Shown here in pieces: positions 1 through 9,233 of a stretch of DNA of 33,991 nucleotides; within the stretch, counting starts at the first letter, position 1; the number at the start of each line of letters is the position of its first letter. This DNA is from Cloacibacterium sp. (GTDB lineage: Bacteria; Bacteroidota; Bacteroidia; Flavobacteriales; Weeksellaceae): contig JAGOJI010000013.1 in assembly GCA_017995195.1 (NCBI GenBank), positions 1-33,991 on the forward strand. The letters are read 5' to 3'. Made by a program: the position numbers and the translations under genes. Under the pieces are notes generated by a model. The model was given only the letters and a program-made list of their open reading frames with translations, searched no databases and was not told where the DNA came from.

Positions 1-2
1 AT

Positions 3-434
3 TTTTTTTATATATCTCTAATATTTGTACTTAAATTTTTAGTTATATATATATCAAAAAATAACAATAAATATTATTCCAATAATTTAGATATTGGTTT
101 TATTGAAAATAATATTATTTTATTTATTTTAGTTGTTATTTTAGTTCCAATTATTGAAACAATTCTTTTTCAAACGCTTCCTACTTTTATTTATAACTTA
201 ATAGGTCCTTTTAGTACCATAAAAGAAACACTAATAATAGTAGTAATTTCTTTATTTTTTTCAATTTCTCACAATTATAATATAACATATGTGTTAGTTA
301 CATTTATTGTAGGTTTTAGCCTAATTGTTTTATCTTTTTTGTTATTGAAATTAAAAAAGAATTATTTTTTTCCAATATTTTTCATCCATGCAACCAATAA
401 TTTAATAGTATTTATAATCGGCTTTTACAATTAG
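3..434 (+). CDS. CPBP (Abi/CAAX) family membrane protein, 5' end outside window
   Basis: The reading frame is open from the left edge to a TAG at 432-434, so the gene is partial at its 5' end. The protein is very hydrophobic. It carries the three marks of CPBP intramembrane proteases: I-E-T-I-L-F-Q (a variant of motif 1, EExxxR), F-S-I-S-H (motif 2, FxxxH) and H-A-T-N-N (motif 3, HxxxN). CPBP proteins beside class II bacteriocin genes are known as immunity proteins; that role is inferred here from the GG-leader peptides and related CPBP genes that follow. The second motif-1 glutamate is Thr and the Arg is Gln, so peptidase activity is uncertain. Base composition is extremely AT-rich, unlike the exporter genes downstream. 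Confidence 0.8.
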   Translation, partial: FFYISLIFVLKFLVIYISKNNNKYYSNNLDIGFIENNIILFILVVILVPIIETILFQTLPTFIYNLIGPFSTIKETLIIVVISLFFSISHNYNITYVLVTFIVGFSLIVLSFLLLKLKKNYFFPIFFIHATNNLIVFIIGFYN

Positions 435-504
435 TTATGAATAAGAAAAATTATATAATAAATTTATTTACTTTTGAAAAAAAAAGTAATAATTATATGA
501 AAAT

Positions 505-687
505 CGAATAGGAGGTCTAAAATTTTATTTTCAGTTAAATATTCAAGAAGTAAAAAAAATAGAGGGAGGCAACAAAGTTATAGATTTTGTAGCTGGTTAC
601 CTAGCTGGAAAAGCTTTAGATTATGTAATTAGTAATTACTCAAGAGATTCAGCATACTATAGATCTGGAGGAGTTATGTTAGGATAA
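505..687 (+). pseudogene. GG-leader peptide without a canonical start codon (module 1)
   Basis: The frame reads ...Q-L-N-I-Q-E-V-K-K-I-E-G-G followed by a 38-residue cargo (NKVIDFVAG...) and a TAA at 685-687. Leader end and Gly-Gly align with the intact leader at 2865 and the module 2 leader. The cargo contains G-Y-L-A-G, a GxxxG helix-packing motif, followed by a Tyr/Ser-rich tail. The frame is open back to a stop at 490-492 but holds no ATG, GTG or TTG before the Gly-Gly. The codon aligning with Met1 of the intact leader is CGA (505-507). I read it as a decayed or silent peptide gene; use of a rare start codon cannot be excluded. The coordinates follow the leader alignment, not a proven start. 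Confidence 0.6.
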
Positions 688-695
688 TATATTAT

Positions 696-723
696 AGCAA
701 CTCTATTTAGTTATAGAGTTGCT
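696..723 (+). terminator. Hairpin between module 1 peptide and its CPBP gene
   Basis: Perfect 11-bp inverted arms, 696-706 (AGCAACTCTAT) and 713-723 (ATAGAGTTGCT), with a 6-nt loop. It starts 9 nt after the peptide stop codon and ends 17 nt before the CPBP start. Only a short T stretch follows, so it may be an attenuator or mRNA-stabilising stem rather than a full terminator. Equivalent hairpins sit at the same place in the other modules. Confidence 0.65.
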
Positions 724-740
724 TTAAAAAATGTTGCAAA

Positions 741-1226
741 TTGTTAAAAAAGTTATATAAACTAAACAAATTTTCTTTTGTAGTTATTGCATCGATTTTA
801 GGGATACTTTTGAATATTGCAGTACCATACTTACTATATATAATGTTCCCTTTTGAATTTGAAACAAATCTAACAAGTAGTGTATCACAAAAAGAAGTTT
901 TTTATCTGATTATACCATTACTTATAGCTCCTTTTATAGAAACATTATTATTTCAAGAACTTTTTTATTTGATTTTTAAAGAAAAAAAGATACTAGAAAA
1001 AAAATATGGTGTAGTACTAATGTGTCTAACTTCAGCTTTTTGTTTTGGTTTATGGCATTTTGAAAGTCCTATTCGTATATTAATTACTACAATAATGGGT
1101 TTTTACCTAATGTTTTTATTTTATTTATCTGCTCAAAAAAGAAAAGATGGAGGATTTTCATCTTTTTTAATACTAGTAATTACTCATTTTTTAATAAATT
1201 TGTCTGTTTTTATTATAAAACTTTAA
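741..1226 (+). CDS. CPBP family membrane protein, probable bacteriocin immunity (module 1)
   Basis: A 161-aa protein with several hydrophobic helices. CPBP motifs: P-F-I-E-T-L-L-F-Q (motif 1 variant), F-G-L-W-H (motif 2) and H-F-L-I-N (motif 3). It is short for the family, which often exceeds 200 aa. The frame starts at TTG 741; an ATG at 731 is out of frame and soon closes, so the true 5' end may be damaged. It follows the module 1 peptide and hairpin directly. Related proteins protect producers of class II bacteriocins such as plantaricins; this function is inferred from position. Motif 1 has E-T-x-x-x-Q rather than E-E-x-x-x-R, which argues for a non-proteolytic or altered role. Confidence 0.75.
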   Translation: MLKKLYKLNKFSFVVIASILGILLNIAVPYLLYIMFPFEFETNLTSSVSQKEVFYLIIPLLIAPFIETLLFQELFYLIFKEKKILEKKYGVVLMCLTSAFCFGLWHFESPIRILITTIMGFYLMFLFYLSAQKRKDGGFSSFLILVITHFLINLSVFIIKL

Positions 1227-1282
1227 AAATTTATTAAATCTTTAATAGCTAGTGTTATTTAAACTTTAAAATTAAACATTTA

Positions 1283-1456
1283 TATAATATAAAGAATTTA
1301 AATTTAGTAGAGCTTGATGCTCAAGAAGTAAAAAAAGTTGAAGGAGGACAAAGTATAAGAGATATTTTTGAAATTCAGGTTGCAATTCTCGATACTATGT
1401 GGAAGAATCGAAACTCAAAATTTGTTAAAGCGTTAACTTCTGGAACAGATCCATAG
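1283..1456 (+). pseudogene. GG-leader peptide with lost start codon (module 2)
   Basis: The frame reads Y-N-I-K-N-L-N-L-V-E-L-D-A-Q-E-V-K-K-V-E-G-G, then a 35-residue cargo (QSIRDIFEIQ...LTSGTDP) and a TAG at 1454-1456. The 22 leader positions align without gaps to the intact leader at 2865, including N-L-V-E-L and Gly21-Gly22. At the Met1 position the codon is TAT (1283-1285). The frame is open back to a stop at 1250-1252 with no ATG, GTG or TTG before the Gly-Gly. A 17-nt stretch of leader DNA (TTAAATTTAGTAGAGCT) is shared with the gene at 2865, showing common descent. Probably a silenced peptide gene; a non-standard start is the alternative. Confidence 0.65.
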
Positions 1457-1464
1457 TATATTTG

Positions 1465-1494
1465 AGGGAGGGCAAATGCTTTTTAGCCCTCCTT
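1465..1494 (+). terminator. GC-rich hairpin after module 2 peptide
   Basis: Arms GGAGGGC (1467-1473) and GCCCTCC (1486-1492), extended by a G-T pair and an A-T pair to 1465-1494, then TTATAAAA. It begins 9 nt after the peptide stop, matching the hairpin position in modules 1 and 3. Its GC content stands out in a very AT-rich stretch. Confidence 0.7.
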
Positions 1495-1601
1495 TATAAA
1501 ACCTTTAGATTTCATTTAAATTTTTACTGAATTTGAATTTTGAATAATTTCTATTTCAGAAATAAGAGTTTTAAAATTGATAAATACGTATAAATTATAA
1601 T

Positions 1602-2117
1602 ATGATTGATCATTTTCAAAAAAAAATTAATATTAAAGAATCTATAAAATTACAGTTTTTAATCTTTTACTTAATTGGTATTACAATAACTCTATTTTTT
1701 CCTACGCTAATTTTTCACCTTACCGGCATGGAATGTTCGGGTATTAATACGATTAAAAATCATCAGAAAATTGATTTTACCGTAAAAATATTTATGTATG
1801 TTTTCGGAGCTGTATTTGAAACCGTAGTCTTTAGTACTCTAATGTTAAATTTTTTACTTTTTTTTTCTTTTTTAAGGGAAAGGCCTATTTTACTACTCCT
1901 TATCTCTCCCATACCATTCGCATTAGCACATTACACTTGTTGGATATATGTATTAGGAGCATATTTTGGAGGCTTAATTCTTAATTTTTATTATCTAAAT
2001 ATCTATAAAAAAACAAAAATTACTTCAAAAGCAATTGTTTATGTATCACTACTTCATTTTTTAATTAATATGACTGGTTTTCTTATAGCAAGATATATTC
2101 TACCTGAGTATTCCTAA
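1602..2117 (+). CDS. CPBP family membrane protein, probable bacteriocin immunity (module 2)
   Basis: A 171-aa multi-span membrane protein starting at ATG 1602. CPBP signatures: F-E-T-V-V-F-S (motif 1 variant), F-A-L-A-H (motif 2) and H-F-L-I-N-M (motif 3). The first catalytic Glu is kept, the second is Thr, and the usual Arg is Ser. It lies about 145 nt behind the module 2 peptide and its hairpin. Just after its stop comes a broken copy of the start of the HlyD gene, the same order as the intact CPBP-HlyD junction near 3940. Immunity to the module 2 peptide is the likely role by analogy with Abi immunity proteins. If the peptide is silent, the gene may serve as orphan immunity against related producers. 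Confidence 0.78.
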   Translation: MIDHFQKKINIKESIKLQFLIFYLIGITITLFFPTLIFHLTGMECSGINTIKNHQKIDFTVKIFMYVFGAVFETVVFSTLMLNFLLFFSFLRERPILLLLISPIPFALAHYTCWIYVLGAYFGGLILNFYYLNIYKKTKITSKAIVYVSLLHFLINMTGFLIARYILPEYS

Positions 2118-2166
2118 TGAGAAACTAAAAAAACTATTTTCAGGATAATTTATTCCTAATATCTAC

Positions 2167-2336
2167 TTGTCTAAGATGCCTAAAACCATTTTCTACTTCT
2201 TGTTTCCTTACCACTTGTATTAATCCCTATCTCTTCCTTCTCAAGAGGTGTTATCCGTTCTGTGCAAGAGAATACACAGGTTTCGGCGGTGGTAAGCGGT
2301 AGAGTAGTAGCAACAAAACTAGAAAAGAATAAGCAA
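2167..2336 (+). pseudogene. 5' remnant of an HlyD adaptor gene
   Basis: This stretch resembles the start of the intact HlyD gene at 3950. Bases 2265-2332 are identical to 4067-4134 (68 nt, checked by eye). The part before is diverged but still encodes a similar membrane anchor, S-L-P-L-V-L-I-P-I-S-S against S-L-P-I-I-N-I-P-I-S-S. A TTG at 2167 (MSKMPKTI...) gives a matching N-terminus, but a frame slip in the membrane segment breaks the reading frame. Homology stops at about 2336, immediately before the XRE gene end. It lies 49 nt after the CPBP stop, mirroring the intact order. It is a scar of module insertion or recombination and cannot make an adaptor. Confidence 0.85.
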
Positions 2337-2340
2337 AGCC

Positions 2341-2676
2341 TTATTTCTGTAGTTTTTGCAATTCTTCCTGAAGAATTTGGCGAATAAAATTTACATCATT
2401 TGTTATAAGAGGTGATTTTATTTCGCCAAGATTAGTTCCTATAGTATTGTTAGAATTGATAAAAATCTGCTGTTTTTCAGAAAATTCAATAACTTCAAGA
2501 GGATTAAGTTCTAATTCATCAAGCAATAACCCTAATTTTGAAACATCAAAATTAGCATCACCATTTTCCAATTTAGAATATTGTGATTGAGAAATATCTA
2601 ATAAATTTGCCATATAATCTTGGGAAAAATCTTTACGGCGTCTTGCTTCACGAATTAGGGTGCCTTTTACTTTCAT
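2341..2676 (-). CDS. XRE-family helix-turn-helix regulator
   Basis: A 111-aa protein. Residues about 6-60 form an HTH_3 (Cro/C1-type) domain with L-I-R-E-A-R..., S-Q-D-Y-M-A-N-L-L and I-S-Q-S-Q-Y-S-K-L-E-N-G, the typical recognition helix and following Glu-Asn-Gly. The C-terminal 50 residues include a Gln/Leu-rich segment (R-Q-I-L-Q-E-E-L-Q-K-L-Q) that could be a coiled coil for oligomerisation. It is transcribed divergently from the intact two-peptide module, with 188 nt between start codons. That gap holds inverted repeats and a TATCTTTG promoter overlapping a palindrome, so it probably controls itself and the peptides. Neither target nor ligand is shown by the sequence. Confidence 0.88.
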   Translation of the reverse strand: MKVKGTLIREARRRKDFSQDYMANLLDISQSQYSKLENGDANFDVSKLGLLLDELELNPLEVIEFSEKQQIFINSNNTIGTNLGEIKSPLITNDVNFIRQILQEELQKLQK

Positions 2677-2685
2677 AATGCATAA

Positions 2686-2703
2686 ATCTTTGTAACAAAG
2701 ATA
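2686..2703 (-). promoter_or_regulatory. XRE promoter -7 element overlapped by a palindromic operator
   Basis: On the minus strand TATCTTTG (2696-2703) matches the Bacteroidota TAnnTTTG -7 element, placed just upstream of the XRE start at 2676. The perfect inverted repeat ATCTTTGT-A-ACAAAGAT (2686-2702) covers it. This fits autorepression by a dimeric XRE protein. No clear -33 element is seen. Confidence 0.5.
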
Positions 2704-2716
2704 AAAGATAATTGCG

Positions 2717-2775
2717 AATAAAATATTTTAATACGAATATTTTATTTTTTCCAGAATAGGAAATATAAAATATTC
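2717..2775. promoter_or_regulatory. Cluster of related AT-rich inverted repeats (candidate operators)
   Basis: Three related arms occur: AATAAAATATT (2717-2727), AATATTTTATT (2736-2746) and TAAAATATTC (2766-2775). The first two are an 11-bp perfect inverted pair. GAATATTTTA (2735-2744) and the third are a 10-bp inverted pair. They lie in the divergent region between the regulator and the peptide genes. Given the AT-richness some symmetry could be chance, but the repeated GAATATTTTA core suggests binding sites. Confidence 0.4.
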
Positions 2776-2864
2776 TTTTCTTCTTTGTCTCAAGAAAAAC
2801 AAACGTGCACAAAGTGTTTTTTGGTGAAACAAAAATTTTAGTTAATTTTAAAAATTTAAACAAA

Positions 2865-3053
2865 ATGAATTTACAAAAATTAAATTTAGTAGAGCTAGAA
2901 ACTTATGAAAAAAGAAATTTGAATGGTGGAGGTGATACATTTTCAGGAACAGCTTTACCAGAAAAAGATGTAGAAAGAGCAGGAAGAGCTTTAGCATATG
3001 TAGCTCATCAAGTTGGAGACTTTTTTAGAGGAGTTTGGGATGGTTTAAAATAA
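2865..3053 (+). CDS. Double-glycine leader peptide A (candidate class IIb bacteriocin subunit)
   Basis: A 62-aa precursor starting at ATG 2865. An in-frame ATG at 2805 would add 20 residues unlike any leader, so it is rejected. Leader residues 1-22 (M-N-L-Q-K-L-N-L-V-E-L...N-L-N-G-G) end in the Gly-Gly cut by C39 peptidases, leaving a cargo of about 40 residues (GDTFSGTALP...VWDGLK). The cargo looks like an amphipathic helix with GxxxG/GxxxA-type motifs (G-R-A-L-A, G-V-W-D-G) and a Trp near the C-terminus. No Cys, so not a lanthipeptide or disulfide type, and no pediocin YGNGV box. Five bases separate it from peptide B. The exporter at 3950-8762 would process and secrete it. No close known bacteriocin is recognised; antibacterial action is inferred. 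Confidence 0.8.
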   Translation: MNLQKLNLVELETYEKRNLNGGGDTFSGTALPEKDVERAGRALAYVAHQVGDFFRGVWDGLK

Positions 3054-3058
3054 AAATT

Positions 3059-3211
3059 ATGTTAGAATTATTAAATACAGAAGAATTAAGAAACATTAGT
3101 GGTGGACACGACGGTACCGCTTATGAAATAGGAAAAGCCATTGGAGATGGTATTAAAAGAGGTGCTATAATTTTTGGAGTTGTTGTAGCCTTTTTTGCAC
3201 CTAAGTCTTAA
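3059..3211 (+). CDS. Double-glycine leader peptide B (candidate class IIb partner)
   Basis: A 50-aa precursor, ATG 3059 to TAA 3209-3211. The short leader M-L-E-L-L-N-T-E-E-L-R-N-I-S-G-G (16 residues) has the classic L-x-x-I-S-G-G ending. The cargo has 34 residues (HDGTAYEIGK...FFAPKS). It contains G-K-A-I-G and G-I-K-R-G, two GxxxG motifs, followed by a very hydrophobic helix (A-I-I-F-G-V-V-V-A-F-F). It sits 5 nt after peptide A and before a single CPBP gene, the standard layout of two-peptide bacteriocins whose helices pair through GxxxG motifs. The two leaders differ in length, so A and B were probably not made by recent duplication. Pairing with A is an inference. Confidence 0.8.
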   Translation: MLELLNTEELRNISGGHDGTAYEIGKAIGDGIKRGAIIFGVVVAFFAPKS

Positions 3212-3220
3212 TAAAAAACA

Positions 3221-3248
3221 AAGGGATTATTAAATATAATAATCCCTT
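3221..3248 (+). terminator. Hairpin between peptide B and CPBP gene (module 3)
   Basis: An 11-bp perfect stem, AAGGGATTATT (3221-3231) with AATAATCCCTT (3238-3248), loop AAATAT. It starts 10 nt after the peptide B stop. A TTG at 3247 that would extend the CPBP gene lies inside this stem, supporting ATG 3262 as the real start. Little T-tract follows, so partial read-through into the CPBP gene is likely. Confidence 0.65.
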
Positions 3249-3261
3249 GTTGTCAATATTT

Positions 3262-3939
3262 ATGTTTTATAATTTATTCAGTCATACAAGAAGACAGTAT
3301 AGTTTTTTTGAAAAATTAAAGAAATTAATTGTATCTTATTTTCTAACATTTCTATTTGTTTTTTTTTCAATTTTTATAATAAATATTATTGATTATATAG
3401 TAATTAATTTTTTTAATACTCCTTCAATATTAACATTATTAAAAAAAACAAATAATGATATTAATAAGTTAGGATGGATAAAAATAGTACTAATTATTCC
3501 ACTAATTGAAGAGATAATTTTTAGATTATTTCTTGTAACAACTAAACTTAATTTACTTTTAACATCTTCCTTTATATTATTTCTTTTTTTTAACAAAAGT
3601 TTTTTTAATATTCAATATAATAGTTACATAACATATCTTTATCTAGTAATAATCATAATAATAAATATTTTGTTAAATAAAAAAATATTTATTATTCAAA
3701 AAATTATAAATAAAAGAATCAATTATTTTTCAACTATGTCATTTCTTTTATTTGGGTTTGTTCACATTATGAATATAAGAGAGCTAAATTTTAGTATATT
3801 TTTTTTATACCCATTTTTTATTTTACCACAAATAATAATGGGTTATTTTATCACTAATATTAGAATTAAACTTGGTTTTTTGTGGGGAGTTAGCTTACAT
3901 TCTTTTATTAATCTAACAGGATTAATATTGTCTACATAA
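3262..3939 (+). CDS. CPBP intramembrane protease, probable immunity protein (module 3)
   Basis: A 225-aa protein from ATG 3262, with about six or more hydrophobic segments. It has all canonical CPBP motifs: I-P-L-I-E-E-I-I-F-R (EExxxR), F-G-F-V-H (FxxxH) and H-S-F-I-N (HxxxN). It is the only one of the four CPBP proteins here with both motif-1 glutamates and the Arg. It follows the two-peptide pair and precedes HlyD by 10 nt. CPBP (Abi) proteins protect producers in plantaricin and sakacin loci, and in several cases the catalytic motif residues are needed. Immunity is therefore the best call; leader processing is less likely since the transporter has its own peptidase. Local GC is very low (11 of 60 bases in 3421-3480). 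Confidence 0.82.
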   Translation: MFYNLFSHTRRQYSFFEKLKKLIVSYFLTFLFVFFSIFIINIIDYIVINFFNTPSILTLLKKTNNDINKLGWIKIVLIIPLIEEIIFRLFLVTTKLNLLLTSSFILFLFFNKSFFNIQYNSYITYLYLVIIIIINILLNKKIFIIQKIINKRINYFSTMSFLLFGFVHIMNIRELNFSIFFLYPFFILPQIIMGYFITNIRIKLGFLWGVSLHSFINLTGLILST

Positions 3940-3949
3940 TTAAATAATC

Positions 3950-5032
3950 ATGTCTAAAAATACCATCTATCTTGGTATTCTTTCTATTATTGTACTTGTT
4001 TTATTTTCTCTACCTATCATCAATATCCCCATTTCTTCCTCCTCAAGAGGTGTTGTGCGTTCTGTACAAGAGAATACACAGGTTTCGGCGGTGGTAAGCG
4101 GTAGAGTAGTAGCAACAAAACTAGAAAAGAATAACCAAACTATAAAACAGGGTGATACCTTACTTATGGTAACTGCAGAGCAGCTAGATACGCAAAAAAA
4201 TCTGCAAACCAACCAAAATGCAGATTACCAAGCACAACTTTCAGACCTGCAAAAAGTGTCTAATGGCAATTTCTCGGGTTTGCAAACACGGCAATACATC
4301 AGAGAGGTTTCAGCCATGCAAGAGCGTATTGCCCAAGTACAGGCACAGCTTACCCTTGCACAAAAAGACTTAGACCGTGCTACTCTGCTCTACAAGCAAG
4401 GCGTAATCCCCAAAGCAGATTATGATAAGGTATTCTACCATTATCAAAACCTAAAAACACAAATTTCTACCATAAAAGAACAACAACTCGCTACTTGGCA
4501 AGCCCAAAAACGTGATGTAGAGAGACAACTTCGGTCTGTAGGTTCAGAGATTATCCGTATAAACCAAGAACAGAAAAATTATATCATTACAGCTCCTGTT
4601 TCGGGCAGACTTATTAATTTTTCGGGGATACAAAAAGGCAATTTCTTGGTACAAGGACAGTCTATCGGAGAAATTTCACCGGAACAAAACTTGGTGGCAG
4701 AGTGTATGGTTTCTCCTAAAGACATCGGTTTTATCAAGAAAAACCAAAAAGTAAAATTCCAAATAGATGCCTACAATTATAACCAATGGGGATTATTAGA
4801 AGGCAAAGTAACCGATATAGACCAAAACATCACCGTAAACCAACAAACAGGCGAGGCGTTTTTCAAAGTTCGCTGTCTCATGGACAAAAACTATCTGCAA
4901 CTGAAAAATGGTTACAAAGCACAAGTAGGAAAAGGGATGACGCTTACTGCACGATTCTATCTCTTAGACCGTACGCTTTGGCAATTGCTGTTTGACAGAG
5001 TAGATGATTGGTTTAACCCTAATTTGAAATAA
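3950..5032 (+). CDS. HlyD-family periplasmic adaptor of peptide exporter
   Basis: A 360-aa membrane fusion protein. A short cytoplasmic N-terminus is followed by one membrane helix (about residues 7-27, I-V-L-V-L-F-S-L-P-I). Next come a lipoyl-like half (V-S-A-V-V-S-G-R-V...K-Q-G-D-T-L-L), a long Gln/Lys-rich coiled-coil hairpin (about 70-205) and the second lipoyl half (I-T-A-P-V-S-G-R-L), then a beta-barrel region. It links the ABC transporter to the TolC-like channel so cargo passes both membranes. It starts 10 nt after the module 3 CPBP gene. Its composition is ordinary (27 of 60 GC in 4261-4320), in sharp contrast with the modules upstream. A damaged copy of its 5' end lies at 2167-2336. 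Confidence 0.93.
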   Translation: MSKNTIYLGILSIIVLVLFSLPIINIPISSSSRGVVRSVQENTQVSAVVSGRVVATKLEKNNQTIKQGDTLLMVTAEQLDTQKNLQTNQNADYQAQLSDLQKVSNGNFSGLQTRQYIREVSAMQERIAQVQAQLTLAQKDLDRATLLYKQGVIPKADYDKVFYHYQNLKTQISTIKEQQLATWQAQKRDVERQLRSVGSEIIRINQEQKNYIITAPVSGRLINFSGIQKGNFLVQGQSIGEISPEQNLVAECMVSPKDIGFIKKNQKVKFQIDAYNYNQWGLLEGKVTDIDQNITVNQQTGEAFFKVRCLMDKNYLQLKNGYKAQVGKGMTLTARFYLLDRTLWQLLFDRVDDWFNPNLK

Positions 5033-5051
5033 TATTAAAGCTTTTCTCGCT

Positions 5052-5084
5052 AACCTTGTCAAGGTTTTGAACCTTGACAAGGTT
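5052..5084. repeat. REP-like palindrome
   Basis: Two perfect 15-bp inverted arms (5052-5066, AACCTTGTCAAGGTT; 5070-5084, AACCTTGACAAGGTT) with a 3-nt loop. Each arm is itself nearly palindromic. It lies between the adaptor and transporter genes. It may act as a terminator or mRNA-stability element, and its form resembles dispersed intergenic palindromes of flavobacteria. Confidence 0.75.
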
Positions 5085-5128
5085 ATTTTAAGTAAGACAC
5101 AAAAAATCTATCCAAAATCTAAAAAAAA

Positions 5129-7360
5129 ATGAAAAAAATATTTTCTCGCAAATCTCCCCTTTCCTTCGGAGAGGGGTCGGGGGTGAGGATTAAACAACAC
5201 GACATCAAAGATTGCGGAGCTGCTTGTTTGGCTTCCGTTTCTGCACATTATGGACTTAAAATTCCTATTGCAAAAATCCGACAAATCTGTCATACAGATA
5301 AAAGAGGAACCAATGTTCTAGGCATGGTACAAGGATTGGAAGCATTAGGTTTTAATGCAAAAGGTGTAAAAGGTGGCGCAGATGCTTTGCCAGAAATTCC
5401 GCTTCCTGCTATTGCACACGTGGTTGTAAAAGAGCAATTGCACCACTTTGTGGTCATTTATAAAGTTTGGCAAGACAAAAAGTCCCTCTCCAAAGGAGAA
5501 GGATTTAGGGTGAGGATAATGGATCCCGCCTTTGGAAAAATAGAGGAATATACCATAGAAGAATTTTCAAAAATTTGGACAGGTGTTCTTATTCTTTTAG
5601 AACCTAATGAGTATTTTGAGCAAAAAGACGAAAGCACCAGTATTTACAGTAGATTTTGGAATTTAGTACAACCTCATAAAAGTATTCTCGTGCAAGCATT
5701 GATAGGTGCTGTGGTTTACACTGTTTTAGGGCTATCAACTTCTATTTATATTCAGAAAATTACCGATTATGTTTTGATAGACGGAAACCGCAGACTTTTG
5801 AATTTGCTTTCCGTAGGAATGATTGTTATTCTCTTGTTCCAAATTTTTATAGGATATATGAAATCTGTTTTGGTCTTACAAACAGGGCAGAAAATGGATA
5901 AACATTTGATATTGGGCTATTATAAACATCTACTCAAACTTCCACAGCGTTTTTTTGACACCATGAAAGTGGGAGAAATTATCTCCAGAGTAAATGATGC
6001 TGTAAAAATAAGAACGTTTATCAATGATGTTTCTATACAGATTTTTGTAAACATTTTTATCATTATCTTCTCTTTTGCATTAATGTTTACCTATTATTGG
6101 AAACTGGCACTCATTACGGCTTTGGTAATCCCATTCTACTTGCTGGTTTATTTCATCACCAATAAACTCAACAAAAAAGTAGAGAGAAAACTGATGGAAG
6201 AAAGTGCAGAATTAGAGAGTCATTTGGTAGAATCTCTTAATTCTGTAAGAACCATTAAGCAATTCGGCGTAGAAACTTTTGCCAATAATAAAACTGATAA
6301 TCGTTTTTCTAACCTGTTAAAGACCATTTACAAGTCTGTTATTAATGCTTTATTCTCGGGAAATTCTTCTGAGTTTTTATCTAGAATTTTCACCATTGTT
6401 CTACTGTGGGCTGGTGCAGGCTATGTAATTGACAGAGAAATTACTCCAGGAGAGTTACTGTCTTTTTACGCTTTAATTGGTTATTTCACTGGTCCTGTTT
6501 CCCAATTAATAGGTATGAATAAAACCATACAAAATGCACTCATTGCTGCCGATAGACTTTTTGAAATCATGGATTTGGAAAGAGAAGAAACTACCGAAAA
6601 AATAGAATTGACGGCAGAAAGCATCGGGAATATTCAGTTTAAGGACATGTTTTTCAGTTACGGAAGCAGAGTAGATGTTTTTGAAGGTTTTAATTGTGAA
6701 ATAGAAAAAGGTAAAACCACCGCTATTGTAGGAGAAAGTGGAAGCGGAAAAACTACGTTGGCTTCTTTAGTTCAAAATCTTTATCCTCTGAAAAGTGGAA
6801 AAATTATGATTGGGGATTATGACATCAATTATATTTCTAATTTCTCATTGAGGAATGTAGTTTCCGTGGTTCCGCAACAAATTGACTTGTTTTCAGGAAA
6901 TGTGGTAGAAAATATTGCTCTTGGAGAAGATCTTCCTGATATTCAAAGAATCATAGACATTACTAAAAAACTGGGAATTTTAGAGTTTATAGAAAAATTG
7001 CCGAATGGTTTTCAAACCTATCTTGGTGAAAATGGCTCGCAACTTTCGGGCGGACAAAAACAACGCATCGCCATTGCGAGAGCCTTGTACAAAAACCCGG
7101 AAATTCTTATTTTAGACGAGGCCACCTCATCTCTGGACACAGAAGCCGAACAAATTATTCAGAAGACTTTAAATGAATTAAAATCTCAAGGAAAAACAAT
7201 GATTGTAATTGCTCACCGATTAAGCACTATTGCTACTGCCGATAAAATATTGGTAATGAAAGACGGAAAAATTATAGAACAAGGAAATCATAAAGAGTTA
7301 CTTATGGTAGATTCGGTTTATAAATCTATGTGGGAAAAGCAAATAATTTCTCTTAATTAG
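5129..7360 (+). CDS. Peptidase-containing ABC transporter (C39 domain), bacteriocin exporter
   Basis: A 743-aa transporter that cuts the leader after Gly-Gly and exports the peptide. The N-terminal C39 peptidase has Q23-H-D-I-K-D-C29-G-A-A-C, with Cys29 as nucleophile, His106 in L-H-H-F-V-V, and Asp132 in M-D-P-A-F-G. A six-helix ABC membrane domain follows (about 185-470). The ATPase has Walker A at 535-543 (G-E-S-G-S-G-K-T-T), signature L-S-G-G-Q at 639, Walker B D663-E664 and H-loop His696. Two palindromic DNA repeats are read in frame, giving S-P-L-S-F-G-E-G-S-G-V-R-I (residues 9-21) and K-S-L-S-K-G-E-G-F-R-V-R-I (118-130). They lie before the Cys box and between catalytic His and Asp. 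All key residues remain, so the protein is probably active. Confidence 0.95.
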   Translation: MKKIFSRKSPLSFGEGSGVRIKQHDIKDCGAACLASVSAHYGLKIPIAKIRQICHTDKRGTNVLGMVQGLEALGFNAKGVKGGADALPEIPLPAIAHVVVKEQLHHFVVIYKVWQDKKSLSKGEGFRVRIMDPAFGKIEEYTIEEFSKIWTGVLILLEPNEYFEQKDESTSIYSRFWNLVQPHKSILVQALIGAVVYTVLGLSTSIYIQKITDYVLIDGNRRLLNLLSVGMIVILLFQIFIGYMKSVLVLQTGQKMDKHLILGYYKHLLKLPQRFFDTMKVGEIISRVNDAVKIRTFINDVSIQIFVNIFIIIFSFALMFTYYWKLALITALVIPFYLLVYFITNKLNKKVERKLMEESAELESHLVESLNSVRTIKQFGVETFANNKTDNRFSNLLKTIYKSVINALFSGNSSEFLSRIFTIVLLWAGAGYVIDREITPGELLSFYALIGYFTGPVSQLIGMNKTIQNALIAADRLFEIMDLEREETTEKIELTAESIGNIQFKDMFFSYGSRVDVFEGFNCEIEKGKTTAIVGESGSGKTTLASLVQNLYPLKSGKIMIGDYDINYISNFSLRNVVSVVPQQIDLFSGNVVENIALGEDLPDIQRIIDITKKLGILEFIEKLPNGFQTYLGENGSQLSGGQKQRIAIARALYKNPEILILDEATSSLDTEAEQIIQKTLNELKSQGKTMIVIAHRLSTIATADKILVMKDGKIIEQGNHKELLMVDSVYKSMWEKQIISLN
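5154..5189 (+). repeat. In-frame palindromic repeat, copy 1, in C39 domain
   Basis: A GC-rich hairpin unit (CCCCT...TCC-TTC-GGA...AGGGG) followed by a GGGTGAGG tail, read as S-P-L-S-F-G-E-G-S-G-V-R. It inserts about 12 residues between the start and the Q-H-D-I-K-D-C-G box. It shares its tail and reading phase with copy 2 at 5482-5516. Confidence 0.8.
5482..5516 (+). repeat. In-frame palindromic repeat, copy 2, in C39 domain
   Basis: Same unit as copy 1 (TCCCTCTCC-AAA-GGAGAAGG, tail GGGTGAGG), read in the same phase as K-S-L-S-K-G-E-G-F-R-V-R. It sits between catalytic His106 and Asp132, where C39 domains usually have only a short beta turn. Confidence 0.8.
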
Positions 7361-7409
7361 TGTAACAAAAAACAACAACCCTCGTCTAATTAAGAAAACT
7401 TTTCTCACA

Positions 7410-8762
7410 ATGAAAAAAATATTTTCAATAGTTTTTATTTCCTTTTTTATTTTTTCCTTTTCGCAAAAAAAATGGAGCTTGCAAGAGTGTGTAGATTATG
7501 CCGTGAAAAACAATTTACAAGTAATTAGTAATCAATACAATGCAGAGGTTCAATCTAAAAATTTAGAAATTTCCAAAAAAGAATACTTGCCAAGTGTTTC
7601 AGCGAGTATTGGCAATAGTGCGAGCTTCGGAGAAAGGCAGGACAATGTGGGTAGGGCATTGAGAACCGATGCTTTTAATAATAATACGAGCATAGGAGCC
7701 AATGTTCAGGTATATAATGGTGGAAGAATCAAAAAAAATATAGAAAAATCTCAATTTGATTTAGAAGCCTCTCAATATGATTTAGAAAATATCAAGAATA
7801 ATATTTCGCTACAAATTGCCCAGCAATATCTGCAAGTTCTTCTTAATAAAGAGGTAGCAAAAATAGCAGAAAGTGCCGTAGAAAATGCAGAAAAAATCTA
7901 CAAAAGGGCTAAAATAACCACAGAAGTTGGCACAACACCTATGACGGTATTGGCAGAATCACAAGCCAATTTATCTCGGGAAAAACAAAGATGGCAATCT
8001 GCAAAAATAGATATAGAAAGAGCCCGCTTCAATTTGGCAATGCTGCTTCAACTTGGAGATTATAAAAATTTTGATGTACAAGATGTTCCGCTTCCGCAAC
8101 TGTTAGAAGGTCCGGAGTCTTCTACCGACACTATTTTGGAAACTGCCTACGCCAATCAGCCTCAAATAAAAGCCGCAGAAATCCGAATAAAATCTGCCCA
8201 AAAACAAACCGAAATATCCAAAACAGGGTTTCTTCCTACGGTAACAGCAAGTGCGGGAATAGGTAGTTTTTATTATAATTCGCTTGTCACCAACAATACA
8301 GGTTTTGATATTACAACCAACACCTACATCAAGGAAAAAGGGCTTTTGCAACAGTATAAAGACAATTTTGGACAGCAATTGGGGCTCAATGTGAATATCC
8401 CAATTTTCAACAAAGGAATTACTAAGTTGCAAGTAGAACAGACCAAAATTAATGAAAGTATTGCCACCAACACACTCAACCAACAAAAACAAGAGTTGAG
8501 ACAAAGTATTCAGAAAGCCTATTTTGATGCTAATGCTAATTATCAAAACTATCTTGCGGCTTTAGAAACAGAAAAAAGCACCCAATTGGCTCTTAATTTT
8601 GCCGAAAAAAGCTACGAAGCGGGCAGAACTACCATTTATGATTTGAACATTGCAAGAAATAACTATGTAAATGCACAAGGTTCTGTTTCGCAAGCAAAAT
8701 ACAATTATATTTTTAGCATGAAATTGCTTAATTTCTATGCAGGAATCCCTTTGAGCCTGTAA
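7410..8762 (+). CDS. TolC-like outer-membrane efflux protein
   Basis: A 450-aa protein with a signal peptide (M-K-K-I-F-S-I-V-F-I...F-S-F-S-Q, about 1-19) and two OEP repeats of long Ala/Gln/Glu-rich helices (for example V-A-K-I-A-E-S-A-V-E-N-A-E-K and R-Q-S-I-Q-K-A-Y-F-D-A-N-A-N-Y). The opening W-S-L-Q-E-C-V-D-Y-A is typical of Bacteroidota TolC relatives. It forms the outer-membrane channel that docks with the HlyD adaptor. It starts 49 nt after the transporter and is probably co-transcribed with it. Together the three genes make a complete type 1-like export path for the GG peptides. Confidence 0.94.
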   Translation: MKKIFSIVFISFFIFSFSQKKWSLQECVDYAVKNNLQVISNQYNAEVQSKNLEISKKEYLPSVSASIGNSASFGERQDNVGRALRTDAFNNNTSIGANVQVYNGGRIKKNIEKSQFDLEASQYDLENIKNNISLQIAQQYLQVLLNKEVAKIAESAVENAEKIYKRAKITTEVGTTPMTVLAESQANLSREKQRWQSAKIDIERARFNLAMLLQLGDYKNFDVQDVPLPQLLEGPESSTDTILETAYANQPQIKAAEIRIKSAQKQTEISKTGFLPTVTASAGIGSFYYNSLVTNNTGFDITTNTYIKEKGLLQQYKDNFGQQLGLNVNIPIFNKGITKLQVEQTKINESIATNTLNQQKQELRQSIQKAYFDANANYQNYLAALETEKSTQLALNFAEKSYEAGRTTIYDLNIARNNYVNAQGSVSQAKYNYIFSMKLLNFYAGIPLSL

Positions 8763-8780
8763 AAAAAAGAAATCAATAAA

Positions 8781-9233
8781 ATGAATGGTAAAATCAAATT
8801 AAAGCTCAATAGAAAATCTTCGATTAAAGGCAATCGTTATGAGGTTTTTATAGATGGACATTTCATAGGAAGTGTAGATGATAGAAATCCTAAAATTGAC
8901 CATATCACCAATCTTGGAAACCATAAAATTTTGGTAAAAACCGAAGATTTCGAGAAAGAATATCATTTTACTTTAAGTTCAAGAAAATTGATTTTACCCA
9001 TAGATATAAATGAAAATTATTTTTGGAGTAAACAAAGTGGGCAATTATCTCAACTTTTTAAAGGGATTATAATAGGTTTTTTATTGGTTTATGCTGTTAT
9101 AATTACATTTTTGACATTATCTAAACAAATACATTTTACGTATCCTTTACTTATTCCATTTCTATTATTAATTCTTTCTTTTATCAGTTTATTTTCAGGG
9201 AAAAATCAAAAATTTGAACTGCACTTTAAATAA
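8781..9233 (+). CDS. Unknown 150-aa membrane protein at end of exporter operon
   Basis: Not recognised. The N-terminal 85 residues look like a small beta domain (Y-E-V-F-I-D-G-H-F-I-G-S-V-D...G-N-H-K-I-L-V-K-T), loosely similar to PEGA-like folds. Two membrane helices follow (about 92-112 and 118-140) and a short basic tail. No signal peptide is seen. It begins 18 nt after tolC on the same strand, so it probably belongs to the export operon. It might be an export accessory or another immunity protein; the sequence does not decide. Confidence 0.7.
   Translation: MNGKIKLKLNRKSSIKGNRYEVFIDGHFIGSVDDRNPKIDHITNLGNHKILVKTEDFEKEYHFTLSSRKLILPIDINENYFWSKQSGQLSQLFKGIIIGFLLVYAVIITFLTLSKQIHFTYPLLIPFLLLILSFISLFSGKNQKFELHFK

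Follow-up and report, generated by a model that had tools for sequence, protein, structure and literature searches.

A probable class IIb-like two-peptide bacteriocin and a candidate CPBP-type immunity protein encoded in Cloacibacterium and related Bacteroidota

Two-peptide (class IIb) bacteriocins have, to our knowledge, been almost exclusively Gram-positive so far. A pair of small genes in a 33,991-nucleotide stretch of DNA from the flavobacterium Cloacibacterium sp., referred to here as the window, raises the question of whether a Gram-negative producer uses the same design, as was originally predicted from this stretch alone. Comparative sequence evidence (gene order, covariation and motifs) supports this prediction, and the activity is inferred. 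With a probability of roughly three in four, the two products, A and B, together constitute an unmodified class IIb-like two-peptide bacteriocin, which would leave the cell through a C39/HlyD/TolC route and be accompanied by probable CPBP-type immunity, none of the killing, the synergy or the protection having been put to the test. The pair and its partners are:

2341..2676, minus strand: HTH_3 (Xre-like) regulator (E 2.2e-10), divergent from A
2865..3053, plus strand: peptide A precursor, 62 aa, leader MNLQKLNLVELETYEKRNLNGG, cargo GDTFSGTALPEKDVERAGRALAYVAHQVGDFFRGVWDGLK
3059..3211, plus strand: peptide B precursor, 50 aa, leader MLELLNTEELRNISGG, cargo HDGTAYEIGKAIGDGIKRGAIIFGVVVAFFAPKS
3262..3939, plus strand: CPBP-type membrane protein, probable immunity, 225 aa, with EExxxR, FxxxH and HxxxN motifs
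3950..5032, plus strand: HlyD-type adaptor (HlyD_3, E 9.7e-16)
5129..7360, plus strand: C39 peptidase-ABC exporter (Peptidase_C39, E 7.5e-32; TIGR01193 above its curated cut-off)
7410..8762, plus strand: TolC-like outer-membrane protein (OEP, E 2.8e-58)

The two precursor genes are separated by 5 nt and encode no Cys. The leader of A has 22 residues and ends in NLNGG, a third glycine (GGG) leaving the cut site ambiguous by one residue, whereas that of B has 16 residues and ends in NISGG. The cargo of A, of about 40 residues, carries GVWDG (a GxxxG motif) near its C-terminus, and the 34-residue cargo of B carries AYEIGKAIG (YxxGxxxG) near its N-terminus. The original prediction had described the two adjacent genes and their spacing, the Gly-Gly leaders differing between subunits, the lengths and Cys-free nature of the cargos, the CPBP gene after the pair and the C39 exporter downstream; all were borne out, and the coordinates and translations were right. 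Each cargo was predicted by AlphaFold as one helix (residues 33-61 in A; residues 20-46 in B, pLDDT about 80), and these single-chain models say nothing on pairing. No clear Bacteroidetes-type promoter was found 5' of A. The HTH_3 regulator sits inside the inserted cassette and may control it, a link that has not been shown.

The pair meets the class IIb criteria of two distinct peptides from neighbouring genes, double-glycine leaders together with a C39-ABC exporter (cleavage being inferred), a GxxxG-type motif in each peptide (significant only family-wide), and linear peptides without a modifying-enzyme gene (none was seen in positions 1-9000 of the window; the peptide product itself is unanalysed). 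Gram-positive class IIb systems such as lactococcin G, plantaricin JK/EF and carnobacteriocin XY share with it the neighbouring genes with GG leaders, short cargos that lack Cys, contain GxxxG and are helical (by prediction only for A and B), a C39-ABC exporter and a single gene for membrane-protein immunity (putative here), which is of the Abi/CPBP type in some of them (PMC6957408). The differences are that the producer of A and B is Gram-negative, with HlyD and TolC-like partners, that A has no sequence relative, that the A and B leaders differ, and that cassettes are stacked before hlyD.

The CPBP-type protein at 3262-3939 matched the NCBIfam CPBP model only weakly (E 2.6e-6, short of the cut-off) and nothing in Pfam, but EEIIFR, FGFVH and HSFIN are readable in its sequence. 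It is most closely related to the CPBP that accompanies the pair in L019 (collected loci are numbered with L), and the equivalent gene in L020, L021, L022 and L130 matched the Pfam Rce1-like family above the cut-off. Further genes and remnants lie upstream of A:

3..434, plus strand: CPBP-like gene 1, truncated by the contig end
493..687, plus strand: decayed peptide R1, LNIQEVKKIEGG (leader, its 5' part lost) followed by NKVIDFVAGYLAGKALDYV...
741..1226, plus strand: CPBP gene 2, after R1 (Rce1-like, E 1.9e-10)
1286..1456, plus strand: decayed A-type peptide R2, leader IKNLNLVELDAQEVKKVEGG followed by QSIRDIFEIQ..., with ATA at the start codon where ATG is expected
1602..2117, plus strand: CPBP-like gene 3, after R2, without a family match
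2223..2337, plus strand: remnant of the hlyD 5' end at the junction of the cassette insertion, 115 bp, 94% to 4025-4139

R2 is matched by the A family profile (E 1.1e-8), and the G+C content of the cassettes is 22-23% versus 36% elsewhere. The hlyD remnant marks the site where the newest cassette entered. Most simply, cassettes of toxin and immunity genes would insert before hlyD, the old toxins then decaying while the old immunity genes stay. Positions 1-2340 of the window, with three older CPBP-like genes, two of them beside start-less peptides, resemble an archive of orphan immunity.

The CPBP-type protein encoded after B is probably the immunity protein for A and B, an inference drawn from its position, from the retention of such genes beside dead toxins and from Gram-positive two-peptide systems, some of which rely on Abi-type immunity (PMC6957408); its function is untested. 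A role in production cannot be excluded. That it acts there as a maturation or trafficking protease and not in immunity, a doubt confined to the CPBP step, seems unlikely: the catalytic-type EExxxR motif and the histidines are kept, and the CAAX protease SilX of Streptococcus anginosus, which affects the production of a bacteriocin, provides a precedent (PMC9298176), but the upstream CPBP genes persist beside start-less peptides, as retained immunity would, and related loci without CPBP have small membrane look-alikes instead.

Searched singly against 99 relatives, A and B each returned only the window itself at a convincing score, and B had no match in plasmid records. Since A and B diverge too fast for direct search, loci were gathered through the conserved HlyD adaptor, and GG-leader peptides were sought near HlyD in each. 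The order A-B-CPBP-HlyD recurs in Chryseobacterium and relatives; the loci that show it are L019, which is closest to the window, L020-L024, L029, L031, L130, L132, L136 and L139. A-B pairs without the exact CPBP-HlyD context were found in Sphingobacterium (L042), in a second family of Flavobacteriales (L160, L168) and elsewhere in Bacteroidota, and pairs also occur in Flavobacterium. The producer belongs to the Chryseobacterium family: its sister genomes there carry the exporter, and the closest named matches are mostly from Chryseobacterium and Epilithonimonas. The exporter is nearly unchanged between loci while A and B differ radically. The B nearest to that of the window is the one of L042. 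A point against the two-peptide reading is that the A of the window is only weakly similar to the A of L019, the nearest relative. Between close pairs, dN/dS was 0.08-0.24 for A and B, indicating purifying selection.

Profiles of the two families matched the window genes with E 1.9e-16 (A) and 4.9e-15 (B). In 320 family genomes, all 15 strong A-profile matches adjoin a B match and strong B matches adjoin A, and no orphan mature-spanning B was found at high score; most of these 15 pairs had helped to shape the profiles, the exceptions being G136:4445237/4445440 and G181:1357781/1357617. Among 16 adjacent pairs from new Flavobacteriales loci, six matched the A profile with the first gene and the B profile with the second, each above shuffles at p<=0.025, about 0.01 such pairs being expected. 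Over all 16, the preference for this order fell short of significance (10/16, p 0.065), owing to an admixture of other peptide families. Distances among A peptides correlated with those among B peptides (r 0.86, and 0.85 with HlyD distance removed; partial Mantel, p 2e-4), also without near-identical loci (0.63, and 0.61 with HlyD removed; p 2e-4). A/B/CPBP cassettes thus evolve and move as units before a conserved exporter. A lack of co-conservation would have refuted the original prediction; A and B co-occur in order and covary, and the prediction passed this check.

The GxxxG motifs on which the prediction also rested are present in both peptides and enriched across their families, but show no excess in this locus alone (one motif in A, p 0.54, and two in B, p 0.17, against shuffles). 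As these window counts do not exceed chance, the case for A and B must come from relatives. GxxxG occurred 19 times across the A family against 8.0 expected (p 4e-4) and 22 times across the B family against 12.5 expected (p 0.003), the neighbouring motif spacings being at chance in both. In mature A (17 sequences), the only columns conserved at >=90% are G34 and G38, which form a GxxxG that typically reads GFxDG. In mature B, Y6 and G13 are near-invariant and G9 is frequent, giving YxxGxxxG; the similarity of mature B to lactococcin G-alpha and plantaricin K lies at this motif.

The original prediction had recognised no described family for the cargos, which holds for A, whose mature profile found nothing, but not entirely for B. 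The best PDB match of the mature-B profile was lactococcin G-alpha (E 0.011, the next being 9.2; 177,635 sequences), a weak match that rests on about 11 residues; the B profile with leaders placed lactococcin G-alpha first and plantaricin K second, the alignment lying in the mature part. Curated cut-offs were not reached by B (PF10439, 20.4 versus 27.1 bits; TIGR03949, 10.7 versus 21.5; NF038035, 21.1 versus 37), and A matched none of these three models. Curated 'class IIb' family labels were rejected as evidence, since these matches are leader-driven and vanish without the leader.

It might be supposed that A and B are two independent one-peptide bacteriocins, which share an exporter and travel together without synergy. 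Such an arrangement would suit the L020, L029 and L132 loci, in which one A stands beside two copies of B, the L027 and L028 loci, which have a single GG peptide, both of these exceptions also weighing against the two-peptide reading, and the extended runs of GG peptides seen elsewhere in Bacteroidota. We consider it distinctly unlikely in view of the fixed A-then-B order with a separate conserved motif in each peptide, the covariation of the two, the lack of high-scoring orphan B across the 320 genomes, and the resemblance of B to one partner of a known two-peptide system.

For the two-peptide reading, sequence shows the genes and their order, the leaders, the exporter, the joint conservation and covariation of the pair and the enrichment of the motifs; the events beyond them are inferred, cleavage and secretion from the protein families and helix pairing via GxxxG from the class IIb analogy and motif conservation. 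The C39 domain would cut both leaders during export via ABC-HlyD-TolC, and outside the cell both short peptides would fold as helices at the target membrane, probably having first crossed the outer membrane of related bacteria. A (GVWDG) and B (YEIGKAIG) may then pair via their GxxxG faces into a membrane-permeabilising complex that kills the target, while the CPBP-type protein encoded right after B would protect the producer. A, B and CPBP would form a low-G+C cassette that is swapped as a unit before the conserved exporter.

Two known bacteriocin systems of Gram-negative bacteria share some of these features. The bacteroidetocins (PMC6671954) are also from Bacteroidota and have a GG leader, a C39-type ABC exporter and a cargo of about 40 residues, but each is a single class IIa-like peptide with four Cys, a thiol oxidoreductase gene and no immunity gene; A and B have no Cys, and no thiol oxidoreductase gene was recognised in the cluster. 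Caulobacter CdzC/CdzD (PMC5380434) is a bacteriocin made of two glycine-motif proteins, with a type I secretion route and a small membrane protein for immunity, but it forms contact-dependent cell-surface aggregates and has no CPBP. That A and B are a contact-dependent glycine-zipper system of this kind, and not a diffusible bacteriocin, is suggested by the Gram-negative host, the type I route and the two small proteins with Gly motifs; it is very improbable, as the Cdz proteins are 84-86 aa long against cargos of 34-40 aa and precursors of 62 and 50 aa here, which have C39-type GG leaders and short GxxxG helices, and as the partner is of CPBP type and not the three-TM CdzI. It is hardly tenable that only one of the two peptides is a toxin, its companion being a secreted operon-inducing signal like the BlpC/EntF-type pheromones, which have the same kind of leader: a few B precursors weakly match BlpC/ComC/EntF models, but only via the leader, these matches being gone for mature B, which is a 34-residue GxxxG helix, and neither a sensor kinase nor a response regulator is present in the cluster.

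As a general class such peptides are not new, because the IIBacFinder survey predicts class II precursors in bulk across Gram-negative phyla, Bacteroidota included, although the available portion of that account does not describe the A/B pair, its motifs, the CPBP linkage or the look-alikes (PMC12648078). No description of the family or of these features was found in the open-access literature, most subscription papers and all preprints being outside the scope. Dozens of natural A/B/immunity combinations before one exporter provide matched sets for tests of pairing, specificity and immunity, and narrow-spectrum agents of this type could act on Gram-negative Bacteroidota.

Many sister clusters without CPBP encode a 30-56 aa protein, usually directly after the pair, which lacks a GG leader, has a single membrane helix and mostly a basic N-terminus, and in one segment strikingly resembles a toxin peptide of the same locus. 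Such look-alikes are:

L037:7452-7580, look-alike LYLLISVIEYPEAFKAGFLGR, compared with A of the locus, LYLMISVIEYPQDFVDGLLGR
L026:993-1154, look-alike GYAIGKFMAHWENSK, compared with the toxin segment GYAIGKFHAHSENNK
L039:10000-10140, look-alike with a 30-residue match to its own toxin peptide, score 82
L070:12107-12265, look-alike
L083:3043-3210 and 3802-3915, two look-alikes
L088:5784 on, look-alike
L096:8183-8305, look-alike
L045:799-888, look-alike
L059:12066-12176, look-alike
L140:5192-5299, look-alike (strand turned so that HlyD is plus)
L169:14372-14500, look-alike (strand turned likewise)

Matches to a toxin of the own locus exceeded those to other loci at score >=45 (5/199 versus 10/15037, odds ratio 39, p 1e-6) and at score >=38 (9/199 versus 47/15037, p 4e-8), the thresholds having been picked after examples were seen; in held-out new loci the effect was weaker (2/39 versus 3/507 at score >=38, p 0.043). 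Look-alike and CPBP are nearly exclusive: among multi-peptide clusters, 22 have CPBP only (23 with L019, whose CPBP escaped the motif filter used in this count), 10 a look-alike only, one both and about 25 neither. A look-alike was sought in the window and none was found. For two look-alikes recognisable in locus pairs, dN/dS was 0.38 and 0.20. Judged from these sequence comparisons, the look-alikes are candidates for immunity by mimicry of a toxin subunit, for which an independent test is needed, the thresholds being post hoc; decay of a toxin copy fits badly, the leader having been replaced by a basic membrane anchor.

It was stated that the working of two-peptide bacteriocin immunity proteins 'remains a mystery' (PMC6957408). 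The look-alikes bear on this question and make one specific mechanism directly testable. Evidence and doubt are about evenly balanced for the wider proposal that Bacteroidota possess fast-diversifying class IIb two-peptide bacteriocins, distant kin of lactococcin G-alpha, with interchangeable immunity provided either by CPBP or by a look-alike that mimics a helix and blocks assembly.

In a comparison with a Gram-positive system, CbnZ, the proven 42-aa carnobacteriocin XY immunity protein, scored 28 against CbnX (shuffle p 0.056; against CbnY, p 0.61), which is suggestive only. In the L157 locus, the CbnX/CbnY query matched at 100%. A 42-residue ORF at L157:1516-1641 fits CbnZ by length and position, and its IGRSIG end is loosely like LGNMVG of CbnX. 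At L141:5201-5305 (HlyD turned to plus), a look-alike related to that of L140 stands with toxins of another type, possibly as an orphan immunity gene.

In some Chryseobacterium loci, a 38-42 aa membrane protein of a conserved type is encoded between A and B (L021:7208-7333, L141 4675-4854 and L023:7144-7257). At L173:4173-7525, about 19 tandem GG-leader peptides lie upstream of an HlyD gene, many with near-identical TSPLCIGVIIGLTITI cargos. GG-leader peptides of Pedobacter and Dyadobacter with long Ser/Asp/Gly-rich cargos (GLFGNSDSS..., LLGLGNSND...) represent a different secreted family beside a similar HlyD, located near position 7500 in L048, L052-L054, L058, L060, L066, L067, L071, L074, L075, L080 and L082.
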